A DNA stretch of 29,064 nucleotides from an uncultured Sphingomonadales bacterium. Its GTDB lineage: Bacteria > Pseudomonadota > Alphaproteobacteria > Sphingomonadales > Sphingomonadaceae. Below, piece after piece: positions 3,476-17,090 of this stretch; position 1 is the stretch's first letter, and every line of letters starts with the position of its first letter. Where the stretch lies: positions 1 through 29,064 of the forward strand of contig CAJBSR010000169.1 in assembly GCA_903958285.1 (NCBI GenBank), in the 5' to 3' direction. Made by a program: the position numbers and the translations under genes. The notes beneath the pieces are model-generated. The model saw only the letters and a list, made by a program, of their open reading frames with translations, made no database searches and had not been told where the DNA came from.

Positions 3476-3691
3476 ATCTGAACCTCTAGTCTTCCCTTTT
3501 GTGCAGGTGCGAAAGCGATGCCGTCTGCTCCGTTTGGCTGAGATTGAGCCGCGGGAGAGTTGCAGGGCATGGGCAGCCCTTAGGGCGCGGATGTGGCCAG
3601 GGCGCCCTGCATCCTTAGGTTAGACCGGCGTATTTCAGCCAAAATCCTCAGAGGAACGCGAGTTACCGGCCACGCCCCACCCCTTTCAGGC
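3476..3691. other. Non-coding stretch with nested inverted repeats
   Basis: This is the first part of the longest gap (3476-3851). I see no plausible gene. It contains TGCAGGGC (3561-3568) repeated inverted as GCCCTGCA (3604-3611), enclosing GGGCAGCCC and a competing GGGCGC/GCGCCC pair (3583-3588 with 3602-3607). A structured RNA is possible on either strand, but there is no T-run after either arm and no clear promoter. The only open frame across it (96 codons, plus strand from 3593) has no ribosome binding site and runs into the LysR gene. Confidence 0.4.
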
Positions 3692-3726
3692 ACAAAAAAG
3701 AAGGCCAGCCCCGAGGGACTGGCCTA
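3692..3726 (-). terminator. Intrinsic terminator on the minus strand
   Basis: Stem GGCCAG(3703-3708)/CTGGCC(3719-3724) plus an inner CCC/GGG pairing. On the minus strand it is followed by TTCTTTTTTGTG. Direction is clear from the A-run on the plus strand at 3693-3702. It would end the candidate small RNA; the plus-strand MFS transcript gets no T-tract from it. Confidence 0.75.
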
Positions 3727-3767
3727 TGAAAGTTTGTATAGGAGAGGATGCCTGAAAGGCACCCTCT
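3692..3767 (-). ncRNA. Candidate small RNA, divergent from lysR
   Basis: Read on the minus strand, this segment has two hairpins. The first pairs 3757-3767 with 3743-3753 (11 positions, 3-nt loop, one G-U only on this strand; the plus strand has an A-C mismatch there). The second is a GGCCAG/CTGGCC stem (3703-3708 with 3719-3724) extended by CCC/GGG and followed by TTCTTTTTT, a strong intrinsic terminator. Between them lies an unpaired UCCUCUCCU-like pyrimidine tract, complementary to Shine-Dalgarno sequences, as in several alphaproteobacterial regulatory RNAs. A weak promoter, TTGCAC-N17-CACATA (3790-3795 and 3767-3772), would start RNA near 3760, shortening hairpin one to GCCU-UUC-AGGC. No minus-strand gene exists that would need this terminator. 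I do not recognise the family. Confidence 0.42.
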
Positions 3768-12214: not shown

Positions 12215-14494
12215 TTGCTCCACCTCGTTAAACAGTTTTGGACGACCCTGACCGGAAAGCGGAACCGCCCGCTTTTATGGGCGTTTGTCGCATGTCTGGT
12301 CGTCGCGGTGTTGGAAATTTCATCGCCGCTGGACGATGTGATGCGTGTTATGCGCAACCATGCGCGTGCCCATGACGCCAGCGGACAAATCGTCGTCGTC
12401 ACTATCGACAGTCCAACCGTCGCCGCGCACGGCGAATGGCCCTGGCCCCGCAACAAGGTGGCCGATCTTGTTGAACGTATTGATGCCGCGGGCGCCAAAC
12501 AGTTGGCCTTTGAACATGTCTTTGTGCCGACAGGCTCTGCAGACATGGACGCCACTTTGGCCAAGGCGTTTGGTCGCCTGCCGTTGAAACCACTCATCGG
12601 CGCCAATTTCGATAAGGATCCTGTGACGCATGAGCGCAGCTTCCAGAAGCCGGCGATGATCTTCGATAAAGTCGCCTCCACTGTAGGAATCCCACTCTAT
12701 TTCAACGGCTTTGGCCATGCCTGGCACGCGGCGTACAGCATGCAGGCTGAAGGCGAGGAGTTTCCGAGCCTCGCCGCGGCGATGGCCGGTGCCCAACGGA
12801 TGCACAACCGGCCGGATGTTATCATCGACTATTCCATTGACCCGCAATCAATCCCCCAGATCAGCGCTTTGCAAGTGATGGATGGCACTGCCGGATCTGC
12901 CTTGAAAGGCAAGACGGTGCTCGTTTCAACTGGCCGGTTTGCAGAGAATGTCCCCGGCGGAGAGCCTCTGCCCACCGCCCTGATCCACGTGACTGCTGCC
13001 GAAACCATGCGCCTCGGCCCCCAGACCAATCTGGGTTGGGTGCCGGGATTTGCATTTGCCGTGCTGTGCTCGCTGGTCCTGTGGTTCGGCCGGCGGCGCG
13101 TTGCCGCGGCTGTGGGCGTCGTTGCGGGCGGCACATTAATGTTCGGCCCAATCCTGCTTGAAGCCCGGAATATCTATGTGAATCCTGCACCGGGCTTGCT
13201 GCTTTGCACCTGTGTCCTCGTCATCAGAGCCTGGCGCAGTTACCGCCGCGGCGATGCCCGCGTAAACCCGCTAACGGGCCTGCCCAACCTGCTTGCCCTG
13301 AAAGAGCGTAAGAGCGCAGATGGCGATGCCGTCGTTGCTGTCCGGGTTAAAAACTATGCGGAACTTGTCGCCGCCCTCGCCCAGAATGAGGATGTTCTCG
13401 CAACGCAGATTGCAGCGCGGCTAAAGGCGGGCAACGCATCAACACTCTATCATGGTGATGACGGCATTTTCTGCTGGGTCGCCAACGGCGTCGCGCATGA
13501 CGAACTGTCCGACCAGTTGGAAGCGATCCACAGCTTCTTCCTGATGCCCGTCGCGGTCGGCAATTGGCAGGTCGACGTGTCCATAGCCTTTGGCATTGAA
13601 TCGGGCACGACGGCAGATCTCGGTTCCCGCTATGCAAGTGCACTTGTCGCGGCGGATGAGGCAGCTGCCGCTGGCCACCGCTGGAAATACTATGATCCCG
13701 CCCGTCTCAACGAGGCCGAATGGAATATGTCGCTGCTCGGTCGGCTTGATACGGCCATCGAAACCGGGGAAGTCTGGGTCGCCTATCAGCCTCAGATTGA
13801 CTTACGGACCGGGCAGGTCACAGGCGCTGAAGCGCTTGTGCGCTGGACACACCCGGAGCGGGGCTCTGTCTCTCCTGAAGAATTTATTTCGGTGGCCGAA
13901 GCCCATGGCCGCATCGACAAGCTGACCTATTTTGTTTTGGATCAGGCGCTGGCCATGGTTGCGGCCACCCATGGCCGCTTGGGTGTTGCCGTCAATTTGT
14001 CCGCCCAGATGTTCAGTCGGAAGGACTTTGTCCGCAAAGTGCAAGAGGCGCTGCGGCGCTACCGCGTGAAAGCAAGGATGCTGACCATCGAAATCACGGA
14101 GTCTGCCGCGGTCGAGAATGAGGCGGACATGTTCGCAACGGTCAACGCGTTGACCGCGCTTGGGGTGACCGTGTCTATCGACGATTATGGGACGGGCTAT
14201 TGCACGCTTGAATATCTCAAAACGATCAAAGCAACCGAACTCAAGATCGACCGGGGCTTTGTAGCTGCGATGGATCAGAGCCGGAGCGACCGCGTGCTCG
14301 TCAATGCGACGATCGAACTCGCCCATTCGCTTGGGCATAGCGTCGTGGCCGAAGGTGTCGAGACACTCGAAACACTCGATCTGCTCAAATCCATGGGCTG
14401 CGACAAGGCCCAAGGCTTCTTCATTTCGCGCCCCATGCCGCGTGAGGAGTTTTTCCAATTTGTCGACCGACAAGTGCGGCCCGAGGCGGCTTAG
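12215..14494 (+). CDS. CHASE2 sensor with degenerate GGDEF and intact EAL domain (c-di-GMP phosphodiesterase)
   Basis: 759 residues. An N-terminal membrane anchor (about 19-36) precedes a periplasmic CHASE2 domain (about 40-265, with IVVVTIDSPTV and GEWPWPRNKVADLV), three transmembrane helices (about 270-345), a GGDEF-like domain, and a C-terminal EAL domain. NPLTGLPN keeps the GGDEF front motif, but the GGDEF loop itself is replaced by HGDDG, so cyclase activity is unlikely. The EAL domain keeps the catalytic set: EAL (Glu539), VNLS, EITE, DDYGTGY (Asp656-657), KIDR and AEGVET (Glu713). It should hydrolyse cyclic di-GMP in response to an extracytoplasmic cue. The start codon is a TTG with GAGG about 7 nt upstream; no ATG or GTG precedes the first membrane helix in this frame. 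Confidence 0.92.
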   Translation: MLHLVKQFWTTLTGKRNRPLLWAFVACLVVAVLEISSPLDDVMRVMRNHARAHDASGQIVVVTIDSPTVAAHGEWPWPRNKVADLVERIDAAGAKQLAFEHVFVPTGSADMDATLAKAFGRLPLKPLIGANFDKDPVTHERSFQKPAMIFDKVASTVGIPLYFNGFGHAWHAAYSMQAEGEEFPSLAAAMAGAQRMHNRPDVIIDYSIDPQSIPQISALQVMDGTAGSALKGKTVLVSTGRFAENVPGGEPLPTALIHVTAAETMRLGPQTNLGWVPGFAFAVLCSLVLWFGRRRVAAAVGVVAGGTLMFGPILLEARNIYVNPAPGLLLCTCVLVIRAWRSYRRGDARVNPLTGLPNLLALKERKSADGDAVVAVRVKNYAELVAALAQNEDVLATQIAARLKAGNASTLYHGDDGIFCWVANGVAHDELSDQLEAIHSFFLMPVAVGNWQVDVSIAFGIESGTTADLGSRYASALVAADEAAAAGHRWKYYDPARLNEAEWNMSLLGRLDTAIETGEVWVAYQPQIDLRTGQVTGAEALVRWTHPERGSVSPEEFISVAEAHGRIDKLTYFVLDQALAMVAATHGRLGVAVNLSAQMFSRKDFVRKVQEALRRYRVKARMLTIEITESAAVENEADMFATVNALTALGVTVSIDDYGTGYCTLEYLKTIKATELKIDRGFVAAMDQSRSDRVLVNATIELAHSLGHSVVAEGVETLETLDLLKSMGCDKAQGFFISRPMPREEFFQFVDRQVRPEAA

Positions 14495-14531
14495 GAAAAT
14501 TAAACTCTTGTAAACCATATTGGCTGAATCC

Positions 14532-14586
14532 AATCTTCTCCTTGTCACCGGTTCCCCCGGTGGCTGTGTGTGACAAGGGGAAGATT
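14532..14586 (+). promoter_or_regulatory. 17-bp hairpin enclosing the ribosome binding site
   Basis: Bases 14532-14548 pair without interruption with 14570-14586 (17 pairs, one G-U at 14539/14579), leaving a 21-nt loop. The 3' arm contains AAGGGGAAG, the ribosome binding site of the next reading frame, and the arm ends on the base before its ATG. A smaller hairpin, CACCGG/CCGGTG (14546-14551 with 14557-14562), competes for three bases of the 5' arm. ATTGG/CCAAT (14519-14523 with 14530-14534) competes for its first bases. This looks like translational gating (thermometer-like or fold-back protection against read-through) rather than a terminator, because no T-run follows on either strand. Confidence 0.72.
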
Positions 14587-14670
14587 ATGAAGACGACGAC
14601 AACGGCGCGCCCCGCCCCGACCAAAGGTTTTTGGGACTGGGTCATGGGTGGCGGCTGGAAGAACGGCTAA
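14587..14670 (+). CDS. Trp-rich 27-residue peptide with hairpin-gated translation
   Basis: Short frame with a very good ribosome binding site (AAGGGGAAG, 3-11 nt upstream of the ATG) and a TAA stop. The peptide has a Thr/Pro/Ala-rich, basic N-terminal half (MKTTTTARPAPTKG) and an aromatic, Gly-rich C-terminal half (FWDWVMGGGWKNG) with three Trp. It is too short and polar for a membrane-spanning helix but could lie on a membrane surface or bind a protein partner. The unit appears complete: leader hairpin, coding region, and intrinsic terminator within about 210 bp. It lies between the EAL gene (93 bp upstream, same strand) and the convergent beta-lactamase gene. I do not recognise a family. 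A weak promoter TTGTAA-N17-CAATCT (14508-14536) is possible. Confidence 0.55.
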   Translation: MKTTTTARPAPTKGFWDWVMGGGWKNG

Positions 14671-14701
14671 GCCTGAAAAGGCTAGCTATTCAGCCACTTT
14701 T

Positions 14702-14741
14702 GAAGGGCTTCGTGCTTCGGCGCGGGGCCCTTCTTCCATTT
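14702..14741 (+). terminator. Intrinsic terminator with UUCG tetraloop
   Basis: Bases 14702-14715 pair with 14720-14733 (14 pairs, wobbles included) around a C(UUCG)G tetraloop, then TTCCATTT. A smaller AGCCT-GAAA-AGGCT hairpin at 14670-14683 precedes it, overlapping the peptide's stop codon. Confidence 0.75.
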
Positions 14742-14818
14742 GGATCGAGCAAGCCGCCGGTGCAGTGATCATCTGTTTGTATGAACTCGACACGACCACA
14801 ATTTGCCTGCGAGTGGCG

Positions 14819-14842
14819 CCGAATCAGGAACGCTTGATTCGG
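14819..14842. terminator. Hairpin at the 3' end of the beta-lactamase gene
   Basis: CCGAATCA (14819-14826) and TGATTCGG (14835-14842) form a perfect 8-bp stem containing the TGA stop of the beta-lactamase gene. There is no T-run on the minus strand, so it may protect the 3' end or act with another factor rather than terminate alone. Confidence 0.35.
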
Positions 14843-15735
14843 TGATTCGTTCCATATTGAAATGATTCCAAGGCGATCTTGACGGCCTCGGCATGAATTT
14901 TTTCCATTTCGGACGAAGTTTCTTGTCCCTCTTTGGGACCCTCAAAAAAGCAACTGAAGACGATGGGCGATGCCCCAGGCGGCCAGACAATGGCAACATC
15001 GTTCACCTTGACCGCCATGCCGTCTGCAAAAGCGGTTCCCGTCTTATCACCGGCGATCCATGTGTCTGGCAGACCCGCGCGCAGCCGTTTCAAGCCCGTG
15101 CCCGTCTCCACGGTCCAACGCACGAGCTTCTGGCGTGAGAGAGAGGAAAGGAGGCTGCCCGTCGTCAGCTTTGCAACTGTCTGGGCAAAGGCCCGCGGTG
15201 TCGTTGTATCCCGATCATCGCCGGGGAGTACCAGATTGAGTTCAGTCTCATATCGGTCCAGCCGCGTCGTCGCATCCCCGATCGATCGCAGCCAACCCGT
15301 AAAGGCCGCTGGCCCTCCAAGCCGCCGCAGGACGACATTGGCCGCGACATTGTCGCTGGTTTTCTGGGCGGCCTCGACAAGCGCCTCAATCGTCATCCCA
15401 CCTTTGCCGATCAGCGGGCCGGTGACCGGCGCGTGTGAGACGCGATCCTGCTCCGTCAGCGGCAGAACCTCATCGAGTTGAAGTTTGCCCAGATCCGATA
15501 AATGCAGCGCCCATGCCGCAAATGGCAACTTGAAGGTCGAGCACATCGCAAAGCGCGCATCCAGACGATGGCCCATCACGCGCCCTGTGCCAGTATCGAG
15601 CAGACAAAAACCCAGCCGACCGCCCGAACGGCGTTCCAGATCGGCAAGGAGGCCCTTGGGCGGTCGTGCCATGGACGCCGCCGCCCATGGCAGCAATAAT
15701 CCTCCCGCCAGCACATGCCGACGGGAGATATGCAT
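14824..15735 (-). CDS. Class A beta-lactamase with twin-arginine signal
   Basis: 303 residues. The N-terminus SRRHVLAGG followed by a hydrophobic stretch is a twin-arginine (Tat) signal, so the enzyme is likely exported folded. All class A active-site elements are present: S-x-x-K as STFK (Ser66, Lys69), SDN in KTSDNVAAN, the omega-loop E-x-x-L-N as ETELN (general base Glu), and KTG in GDKTGTA. It should open the beta-lactam ring by acyl-enzyme hydrolysis; spectrum cannot be read from sequence. The start at 15735 overlaps the accC stop (TGATG), so translation is coupled to a housekeeping operon. No ampR-like regulator is nearby. A weaker upstream ATG/alternative frame start at 15765 would destroy the Tat signal position. 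Confidence 0.93.
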   Translation of the reverse strand: MHISRRHVLAGGLLLPWAAASMARPPKGLLADLERRSGGRLGFCLLDTGTGRVMGHRLDARFAMCSTFKLPFAAWALHLSDLGKLQLDEVLPLTEQDRVSHAPVTGPLIGKGGMTIEALVEAAQKTSDNVAANVVLRRLGGPAAFTGWLRSIGDATTRLDRYETELNLVLPGDDRDTTTPRAFAQTVAKLTTGSLLSSLSRQKLVRWTVETGTGLKRLRAGLPDTWIAGDKTGTAFADGMAVKVNDVAIVWPPGASPIVFSCFFEGPKEGQETSSEMEKIHAEAVKIALESFQYGTNHRIKRS

Positions 15736-17090
15736 CAGCCCTTGGCCTCTTCCGCCGCGAGCCATTCTTCAAGCCATTTGATCGAATAATTGCCATCGAT
15801 GACATCGGGTTGCGCCAACAGATCCTGATGCAGCGGGATATTGGTCTTCACGCCGTCGACGACCATTTCCTCCAGCGCACGACGCATCCGCATCATGCAG
15901 CTTTCGCGCGTCCGTCCATAGACGATCAGCTTGGCGATCATGCTGTCATAATAAGGCGGGATCTTATAGCCCGCATACAGCCCGCTATCGACGCGGACGT
16001 GCATGCCGCCCGCCGGATGATAGGCACGGATCGTGCCCGGCGATGGCGCAAAGGTGCGTGGATCTTCCGCGTTGATCCGGCATTCGATCGAATGGCCGCG
16101 AAATTCCAGATCTTCCTGTTTGACCGACAAAGGCTTGCCTTCGGCCACGCGGATCTGCTCGCGCACAAGATCAAAGCCGGTGATCATTTCGGTCACCGGG
16201 TGTTCGACCTGAATGCGCGTGTTCATTTCGATGAAATAGAATTCGCCATTTTCCCAGAGGAACTCGATGGTCCCCGCACCGCGATAGCCCATATCGGCCA
16301 TGGCTTTGGCGACGATGCCACCCATGCGCGCACGCTCTTCTGCGGTAATGACGGGCGAGGGCGCTTCTTCCAAAACCTTCTGGTGGCGGCGCTGGAGCGA
16401 ACAGTCCCGCTCCCCCAGATGGATGGCATTGCCATTGCCATCGCCGAACACTTGGAATTCGATGTGGCGCGGATTGCCGAGATATTTCTCCAGATAGACG
16501 GTCGCGTCCCCAAAAGCCGCTTTCGCCTCGGTACCGGCCTGCTGCATCTGGGTTTCGAGTTCTTCCTCGTTCGACACGACCTTCATGCCGCGGCCACCAC
16601 CGCCCGATGCGGCCTTGATGATGACGGGATAGCCGACCTCACGCGCAATGCGCTTGGCCTCTTCCACATCGTCAATGGCGCCGTCAGATCCGGGAACGAG
16701 CGGCAGACCAAGGGCGCCGGCCGTCTTCTTGGCCATCACCTTGTCGCCCATAGTCCGGATATGCTCCGGCTTCGGGCCAACAAAAATCAGCTTATGCTCT
16801 TCGATAATCTCCGCAAAGCGCGCGTTTTCCGACAGGAAACCATAGCCCGGGTGGATGGCATCAGCGCCCGAAATTTCAGCGGCGGAAATGATCGCGGGAA
16901 CGTTGAGATAGCTGTCCTTCGCCGATGGCGGCCCGATGCAGATCGCTTCATCGGCCAAGCGCACATGCATGGCATCTGCATCAGCGGTCGAATGGACCGC
17001 CACCGTCTTGATGCCCATTTCATGTGCGGCGCGGTGAATGCGCAGCGCGATCTCGCCGCGATTGGCGATCAGGAGCTTTTCGATTGTCAT
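15735..17090 (-). CDS. accC: Biotin carboxylase subunit of acetyl-CoA carboxylase
   Basis: 451 residues, full family length. Biotin carboxylase N-domain with [13 protein letters not shown] at the start, an ATP-grasp domain with the glycine-rich lid GGGGRGMK (about 163-170), [23 protein letters not shown], the catalytic [14 protein letters not shown] segment, and the C-domain ending in the family's usual place. It carboxylates biotin on AccB using ATP and bicarbonate, the first half-reaction of malonyl-CoA synthesis. It follows accB by 12 nt and overlaps the beta-lactamase start by one base. Confidence 0.97.

Follow-up and report, generated by a model that had tools for sequence, protein, structure and literature searches.

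Immediately downstream of a CHASE2-EAL gene, an uncultured Sphingomonadales bacterium carries what is probably a conserved monocistronic micropeptide gene whose CtrA-type promoter doubles as a translational insulator against run-in RNA. The gene lies in a stretch of 29,064 nt that was analysed as a whole and is referred to here as the window. In the proposed mechanism, the DNA of the -10 element and discriminator is the complement of the gene's own Shine-Dalgarno (SD) sequence. RNA running in from the EAL gene would contain this anti-SD segment and fold into a long hairpin that shuts the SD, whereas RNA from the gene's own promoter would begin inside the 5′ arm of that hairpin and be translatable. 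Because the anti-SD is placed in the -10/discriminator region, transcripts from the predicted start should lack it, and with run-in RNA locked and own-promoter RNA open, the peptide would be made only when its own promoter fires. We infer the start site, CtrA control, read-through and translation, all four, from sequence. The parts are ordinary but their combination is unusual: the comparative evidence argues strongly for a new peptide family and for a trick known from phage that here recurs, in variant form, throughout a bacterial family. The features concerned, by position in the window, are as follows.

12215-14494, + strand: CHASE2 - degenerate GGDEF - EAL gene, a 759 aa frame from TTG (Pfam, synteny)
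14500-14514, + strand: CtrA-type box TTAA-N7-TAAA, one mismatch to TTAA-N7-TTAA (sequence)
14508-14513, + strand: predicted -35 element TTGTAA (anchor motif)
14519-14534, + strand: competing hairpin ATTGG/CCAAT (sequence)
14531-14536, + strand: predicted -10 element CAATCT, 17 nt after the -35 (NANNNT at spacing 17)
14532-14548, + strand: 5′ arm of the SD-burying stem (complementarity, fold)
14535-14543, + strand: anti-SD part of the 5′ arm (complementarity, fold)
14543-14544, + strand: predicted transcription start, within the 5′ arm (7 nt after the -10; minimum of SD-opening cost)
14546-14562, + strand: inner hairpin CACCGG/CCGGTG (sequence; SD-opening energy up for 5′ ends 14547-14555)
14570-14586, + strand: 3′ arm, containing the SD AAGGGGAAG at 14575-14583 (sequence, fold)
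14587-14670, + strand: micropeptide gene MKTTTTARPAPTKGFWDWVMGGGWKNG (homologues; dN/dS 0.30 in its own genus, 10 pairs)
14702-14733, + strand: terminator-like stem of 14 pairs with a UUCG loop and a weak T tail (sequence)
14824-15765, - strand: class A beta-lactamase-type gene, convergent to the mini-gene (Pfam Beta-lactamase2)

The hairpin can be read directly in the sequence: 17 bp, one of them G-U, join 14532-14548 (AATCTTCTCCTTGTCAC) to 14570-14586 (GTGACAAGGGGAAGATT), and the 3′ arm ends one base 5′ of the ATG at 14587. A previous sequence-only reading had described it in these terms, together with a 28-codon frame, two smaller competing hairpins and a 14-pair terminator stem. The frame is borne out, with a coding part of 27 residues (14587-14667) and a stop codon (14668-14670), and both smaller hairpins are present, the loop of the inner one containing a second anti-SD-like UUCCCC (14552-14557). 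The terminator-like stem is also there, although its weak T tail does not pass a stricter T-run test. The RNA fold of 14495-14741 has an energy of -106.7 kcal/mol (z -5.3; equally stable shuffles 0/200). Folded alone, the leader region 14519-14620 gives a modest z of -1.9 (equally stable shuffles 8/200), and weight was therefore placed on comparison between genera and not on the single-sequence statistic. In an Rfam scan of the window at gathering thresholds, no family matched at the hairpin. The sole match lies elsewhere (3687-3767, - strand), to the suhB/mmgR small RNA (RF00519; 46.4 bits against a gathering threshold of 41).

In total, 105 genomes, belonging to 44 genera within a single GTDB family, yielded 105 homologues of the mini-gene, with one copy found per genome, including the window's own. 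Within the window's genus, the region was recovered by a DNA search from the window's own genome and from 4 of 12 others, and a fifth relative (G003) has a divergent copy; the tally is 6 carriers among 13 genomes and 7 genomes without a match, several of which are incomplete assemblies. Another weak DNA match (L006) proved on reading to be a chance match within a larger frame. Profile searches yielded 49 loci, 30 examined first and 19 later; the 30 were the best from a first search with matches in 183 of 397 genomes at E<=1, most of the weak ones probably due to chance. When the whole order was searched, 37 of 396 genomes matched at E<=0.01, all but one within the family; the outsider has E 0.0067, in a 75-residue frame. 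Class-wide, 11 of 337 genomes matched at E<=0.05, of which 2 belong to the family, and the nine others all have E>=0.002 and fall within open frames of 54-374 residues. The earlier case had been staked on the conservation of frame and stem in relatives, and both are conserved: five aligned copies from the genus differ by an in-frame codon insertion and by conservative V/L/I replacements, the stop and core are retained, and the pairing is kept.

The encoded peptides range from 11 to 41 residues. Their usual core, [FI]W[DE]W, has an acidic residue flanked by two aromatic ones, and some members deviate from it. Peptides of 11-12 residues occur in g5, g16, g42, g80 and g90 among other genera (e.g. 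MFRSIWDWIYS, MWRSIWDWILK and MRRSIWDWIFS), encoded about 60 nt past the EAL stop with their own SD hairpin and terminator. At one locus of genus g84 (L173 in genome G108), a GTG-started frame encodes MIDLIAIALGSRRGS, which has no Trp; the locus shares the position and the promoter box, has a strong SD hairpin (GCAAGGTCT..AGACCTTGC), and may be a diverged or decaying member. Two loci of genus g37 (L203, L204) feature other short aromatic peptides, MFDWCLNWFEHWV and MWDWALNWFERWV, in the same place and with their own hairpin; a -35-like anchor was not found there by the anchor rule described below. Computed for 8 of the 44 genera, with the divergent g1 copy L058 excluded, dN/dS is 0.30, 0.11, 0.16, 0.34, 0.23, 0.31 and 0.28 in seven, the one exception being g99 (1.18, 3 pairs). 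Coding conservation and low dN/dS thus point to the peptide as the selected product. A terminator by the strict test lies 3′ of the stop in 81 of the 105 homologues, the window's own not among them.

At E<=10, no family was found in Pfam or NCBIfam for the peptides of 3 members, and PADLOC, PHROGs and PDB sequences gave no match for the window's peptide. A literature search that included the peptide strings found no published description of it. The earlier statement that the peptide matches nothing therefore stands for the family libraries searched but fails more generally, since many unannotated relatives exist. Expression of small frames has been reported for isolates from marine biofilms, Sphingomonadaceae being one of the families represented (PMC11683478), and the lists in that report might include members of the family.

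The mini-gene had also been described as self-contained, a view that needs correcting in that it nearly always sits directly 3′ of a CHASE2-EAL gene. Among the 49 loci found without using the EAL gene, a same-strand CHASE2-EAL homologue lies directly upstream in 46, and the three exceptions (L018, L019, L021) all belong to genus g2. These and two detached Blastomonas loci (L077, L090) retain promoter box, hairpin and peptide. In one genome (G206), a CHASE2-EAL gene is on another contig. An independent pattern scan of 84,980 named genomes returned 32 stretches, of which 5 lie within long unrelated frames and 27 are short frames; CHASE2-EAL is upstream in 24 of the latter, the others being two from Blastomonas and one from Altererythrobacter. 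All but one of these 27 records are labelled sphingomonad or Sphingomonadales-type, and the remaining one, a MAG labelled Rhodospirillales, encodes a peptide identical to that of a g103 genome (G127). Viewed in reverse, a search of 199 family genomes gave 104 CHASE2-EAL homologues at E<=1e-60, in 89 genomes. The 3′ flanks of 102 of these homologues were inspected, and a mini-gene follows in 71. Of 101 flanks, 56 were picked out by an automatic Trp-pattern test; reading for SD, promoter box and position by eye brought the count to 70, and with locus L030 added the tally is 71 of 102. The remaining flanks belong, by eye, mostly to paralogues with other neighbours, e.g. tRNA genes in L141 and L149. 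Genes further downstream differ by genus in family and strand. In the window the next gene is the convergent beta-lactamase-type gene, which occupies the same place in G009 and G002 and is not a listed neighbour in G008 or G012.

The product of the upstream gene matches Pfam CHASE2 at residues 38-279 and EAL at 510-740, with no Pfam match for GGDEF. The motifs EALVRW and DDYGTG are retained, which, together with the lack of a Pfam GGDEF match, makes a phosphodiesterase likelier than a cyclase, and the protein is likely a c-di-GMP phosphodiesterase. A literature search found nothing on CHASE2 together with EAL domains in Sphingomonas. The hairpin follows the EAL stop at a distance of 48-358 nt (median 81), and a terminator-like site between the EAL stop and the predicted start was found by the strict test, which also misses 24 of the 105 terminators behind the mini-gene, at only 1 of 102 loci.

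A half-site TTAACC or GGTTAA is present at -110 to -20 in 93 of the 105 loci, against 7.0 expected from mononucleotide shuffles. A site that differs from TTAA-N7-TTAAC at no more than one base occurs in 55 of the 105 loci, where shuffling gives 1.4. The -35 anchor was defined as a TTGnTA or TTTACA hexamer in or beside the CtrA-type box; 8 of the 105 loci have no such -35-like anchor and were omitted from the promoter, swap and 5′-end analyses (n=97). NANNNT occurs 17 nt past the -35 in 45 of the 97 anchored loci (genus mean 0.44, with A in second place in 86%). Its genus mean does not exceed 0.19 at any other spacing but 12 (0.38; 36 of 97 loci), which is where the CtrA half-site falls. The -10 is degenerate, the mean number of TATAAT matches being no better at spacing 17 (2.67) than at 15 (2.75), and the promoter call is fair, not certain. 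A scan for consensus sigma-70 promoters, which also misses the mini-gene's own promoter, found none in 14300-15000 in either orientation. A TTAA-N7-TTAA type site over the -35 is reported for most promoters that CtrA activates in Caulobacter (PMC11264516), and the mini-gene is probably under CtrA control. CtrA is reported to be dispensable for growth in Sphingomonas melonis (PMC8116508). In L111, L125, L128 and other GTTAA-rich leaders, a further TTAA half-site (GGTTAA) often overlaps the -10. In Caulobacter, CtrA can act as a repressor from this position, according to PMC11264516, and its effect on the mini-gene might include repression besides activation.

The coupling between promoter DNA and SD was assessed by a swap test on the 97 anchored loci from 39 genera, in which the cost of opening six SD bases at 30 °C was computed for three leaders: one from the predicted start, one of run-in RNA with its own upstream 45 nt, and one of run-in RNA in which these 45 nt were replaced by those of other genera sharing the promoter type (at most 3 loci per genus). 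Mean opening costs are 3.24 kcal/mol for the native leader, 8.53 for the own run-in leader and 5.23 for the swapped one. Closure by the own segment exceeds that by swapped segments in 33 of 39 genera (Wilcoxon P=5.8e-9), and the own segment beats at least 90% of swaps in 20 of 39. Nine genera are weak (percentile below 0.7), namely g103 (15 loci), g13, g79, g116, g122, g26, g112, g20 and g97. With swaps from any promoter type and at most 6 loci per genus, the corresponding values are 3.46, 8.50 and 5.32 kcal/mol (P=2.3e-9). In their lowest-energy folds, 81 of 97 run-in leaders have at least four of the six SD bases paired. For leaders that begin at the predicted start the number is 40 of 97, the window's own being one of the 40. 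The swap test across genera indicates that the SD-burying hairpin is conserved as pairing.

When the 5′ end of the leader is moved stepwise, closure stays at about 8.2-8.6 kcal/mol up to position -14 relative to the predicted start and drops between -12 and 0, reaching 3.23 at 0 and 3.28 at +2. In a version with a different anchor rule, 5′ ends at +16 to +20, to which 19-21 genera only contribute, give slightly lower values still (3.0-3.2 kcal/mol). If transcription began 4 nt before the predicted start, about 5.3 kcal/mol of closure would persist. For 26 of 32 strongly closed genera the steepest fall is found between -14 and 0, and its position scatters by 7.1 nt relative to the predicted start, against 10.9 relative to the start codon and 11.1 relative to the SD. 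Outside that interval are g1, g10 and four others, with g1, the window's own genus, falling at +11. Since closure falls just upstream of the predicted start, the anti-SD would lie mostly in the -10/discriminator, which the gene's own promoter would not transcribe.

In the window itself, the predicted cost of opening the SD is about 15 kcal/mol when the 5′ end lies at 14532 or earlier (15.0 for the run-in leader), falls to 3.6 with the 5′ end at 14543 and to a local minimum of 3.0 at 14544, climbs back to 12.3 at 14552, and vanishes past 14557. Behind the rise is the ability of GGGGAA to pair with the second UUCCCC, which lies in the inner loop. Accessibility thus has a narrow local optimum at the predicted start, and four close relatives share such an optimum (predicted 0.7-3.4 kcal/mol at or beside offset 0). 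In its lowest-energy fold the window's native leader still pairs the SD, via the second UUCCCC, so the lock is not fully absent from native RNA. The sequence-only reading had offered transcription starting inside the 5′ arm as one of its options, and this one gains support: the predicted start falls within the arm, and across 39 genera the SD-closing segment is located directly upstream of it.

Another option would make the hairpin part of the native 5′ UTR, a true switch (thermometer, or target of a helper RNA or protein) on transcripts starting upstream of the 5′ arm. The two competing hairpins and the SD pairing kept in 40 of 97 native leaders fit such a switch, and the promoter call that speaks for the alternative is itself a prediction. 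We nevertheless consider it unlikely, as the -35/-10 geometry places the start within the arm, closure tracks the predicted start in 26 of 32 genera, and Rfam has no match at the hairpin. The thermometer that had been considered finds no support and was rejected, since the predicted stem does not melt over the physiological temperature range: opening the SD of the run-in structure would cost 15.8 kcal/mol at 25 °C, 14.9 at 30 °C, 12.7 at 42 °C and 11.3 at 50 °C.

The hairpin could instead serve chiefly the EAL transcript, as a 3′ end protector or an RNase III site at which the two messages are trimmed or cut apart, SD closure then being incidental. A stable stem at this distance past the EAL stop, with no clear terminator between, would indeed sit in the EAL 3′ UTR. 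Against this, the coupling is specifically between upstream segment and SD, in genera of differing sequence, and the three detached g2 loci keep the stem without an EAL gene upstream (own closure 5.3, 6.2 and 4.3 kcal/mol), making this role decidedly unlikely. The same three loci also bear on promoter-embedded insulation: with no EAL gene upstream, run-in from it is not the reason for the hairpin there. A type I toxin-like or dual-function RNA, with a membrane-active aromatic peptide and a message silent until processed, would account for the short, basic, aromatic product and for an SD-burying structure of the kind familiar from type I toxins. It appears very unlikely given that the gene is vertically inherited, mostly syntenic and found in one copy per genome, that the peptide shrinks to 11 residues and has no membrane helix evident by eye, and that no antisense gene was identified by the consensus promoter scan of 14300-15000 and Rfam; synteny with CHASE2-EAL likewise disfavours a mobile toxin-antitoxin system. 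A leader peptide attenuating a downstream operon, as the Trp codons followed by a terminator might suggest, can practically be dismissed, being contradicted by a gene context in which the window's next gene is convergent and downstream genes vary by genus in family and strand, and by a Trp number that varies down to none in L173.

With promoter-embedded insulation as the preferred reading, the function of the peptide is a matter for guesswork: it could be a membrane binder, or a partner of the CHASE2-EAL protein that tunes c-di-GMP turnover. Tight linkage, an aromatic amphipathic core and a CtrA-type promoter suggest, as a guess from context, a peptide at the membrane surface, which would act on CHASE2-EAL or c-di-GMP signalling in a cell-cycle window. 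It is tempting to speculate, tentatively, that an ancestral CtrA-timed micropeptide (reduced to as few as 11 residues, e.g. MFRSIWDWIYS) and CHASE2-EAL form a two-part c-di-GMP module whose promoter was selected as the complement of its own SD, serving as -10/discriminator for one transcript and as lock in the other, i.e. a family-wide bacterial case of insulation by a promoter-embedded anti-SD. If true, a promoter element would be under selection for its pairing with the ribosome binding site of a transcript that does not originate from this promoter, and bacteria could bar run-in expression of a tightly timed gene without a terminator. Such insulation could be searched for elsewhere by the swap test. 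To our knowledge, few small proteins are known from sphingomonads, to which this work adds a widespread and apparently unannotated micropeptide family, some members having 11 residues, which is linked with a c-di-GMP enzyme and, probably, with the cell-cycle regulator CtrA.

Several known systems resemble parts of this arrangement. CydX-type peptides are small-protein partners of larger membrane proteins, and the mini-gene peptide is similarly very short and encoded beside a membrane enzyme. It differs from them in that no sequence relation was found, its promoter is separate, and any interaction is hypothetical. RNA thermometers such as ROSE and fourU also place a hairpin over the SD, whereas the stem of the mini-gene is predicted to be too stable to melt, has no Rfam match, and probably lacks its 5′ arm in native RNA. 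As in CtrA regulon promoters, a TTAA-N7-TTAA type site (one mismatch in the window) lies over the -35; unlike in these, the site is putative, there are two promoter forms, anchored by TTGnTA or TTTACA, and the target is a micropeptide gene. The closest parallel comes from phage T4, in which the SD of the late genes e (lysozyme), soc and I-TevI is reported to be sequestered on early run-in transcripts, while a late promoter inside the 5′ strand of the hairpin gives late transcripts that lack the 5′ portion and are well translated (PMC3014915, PMC2988022), with a 100-fold effect quoted for gene e in the review cited. As predicted here for the mini-gene, upstream transcripts carry the SD-inhibiting stem, promoter-proximal DNA encodes its 5′ strand, and transcripts from the gene's own promoter are made without that strand. 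Transposon genes are protected from outside promoters in a similar way. Unlike the T4 late genes, the mini-gene is bacterial and chromosomal, has a CtrA-type promoter and extends over 44 genera, and across these genera it is presumably non-transcribed DNA of the promoter that appears coupled to the SD.
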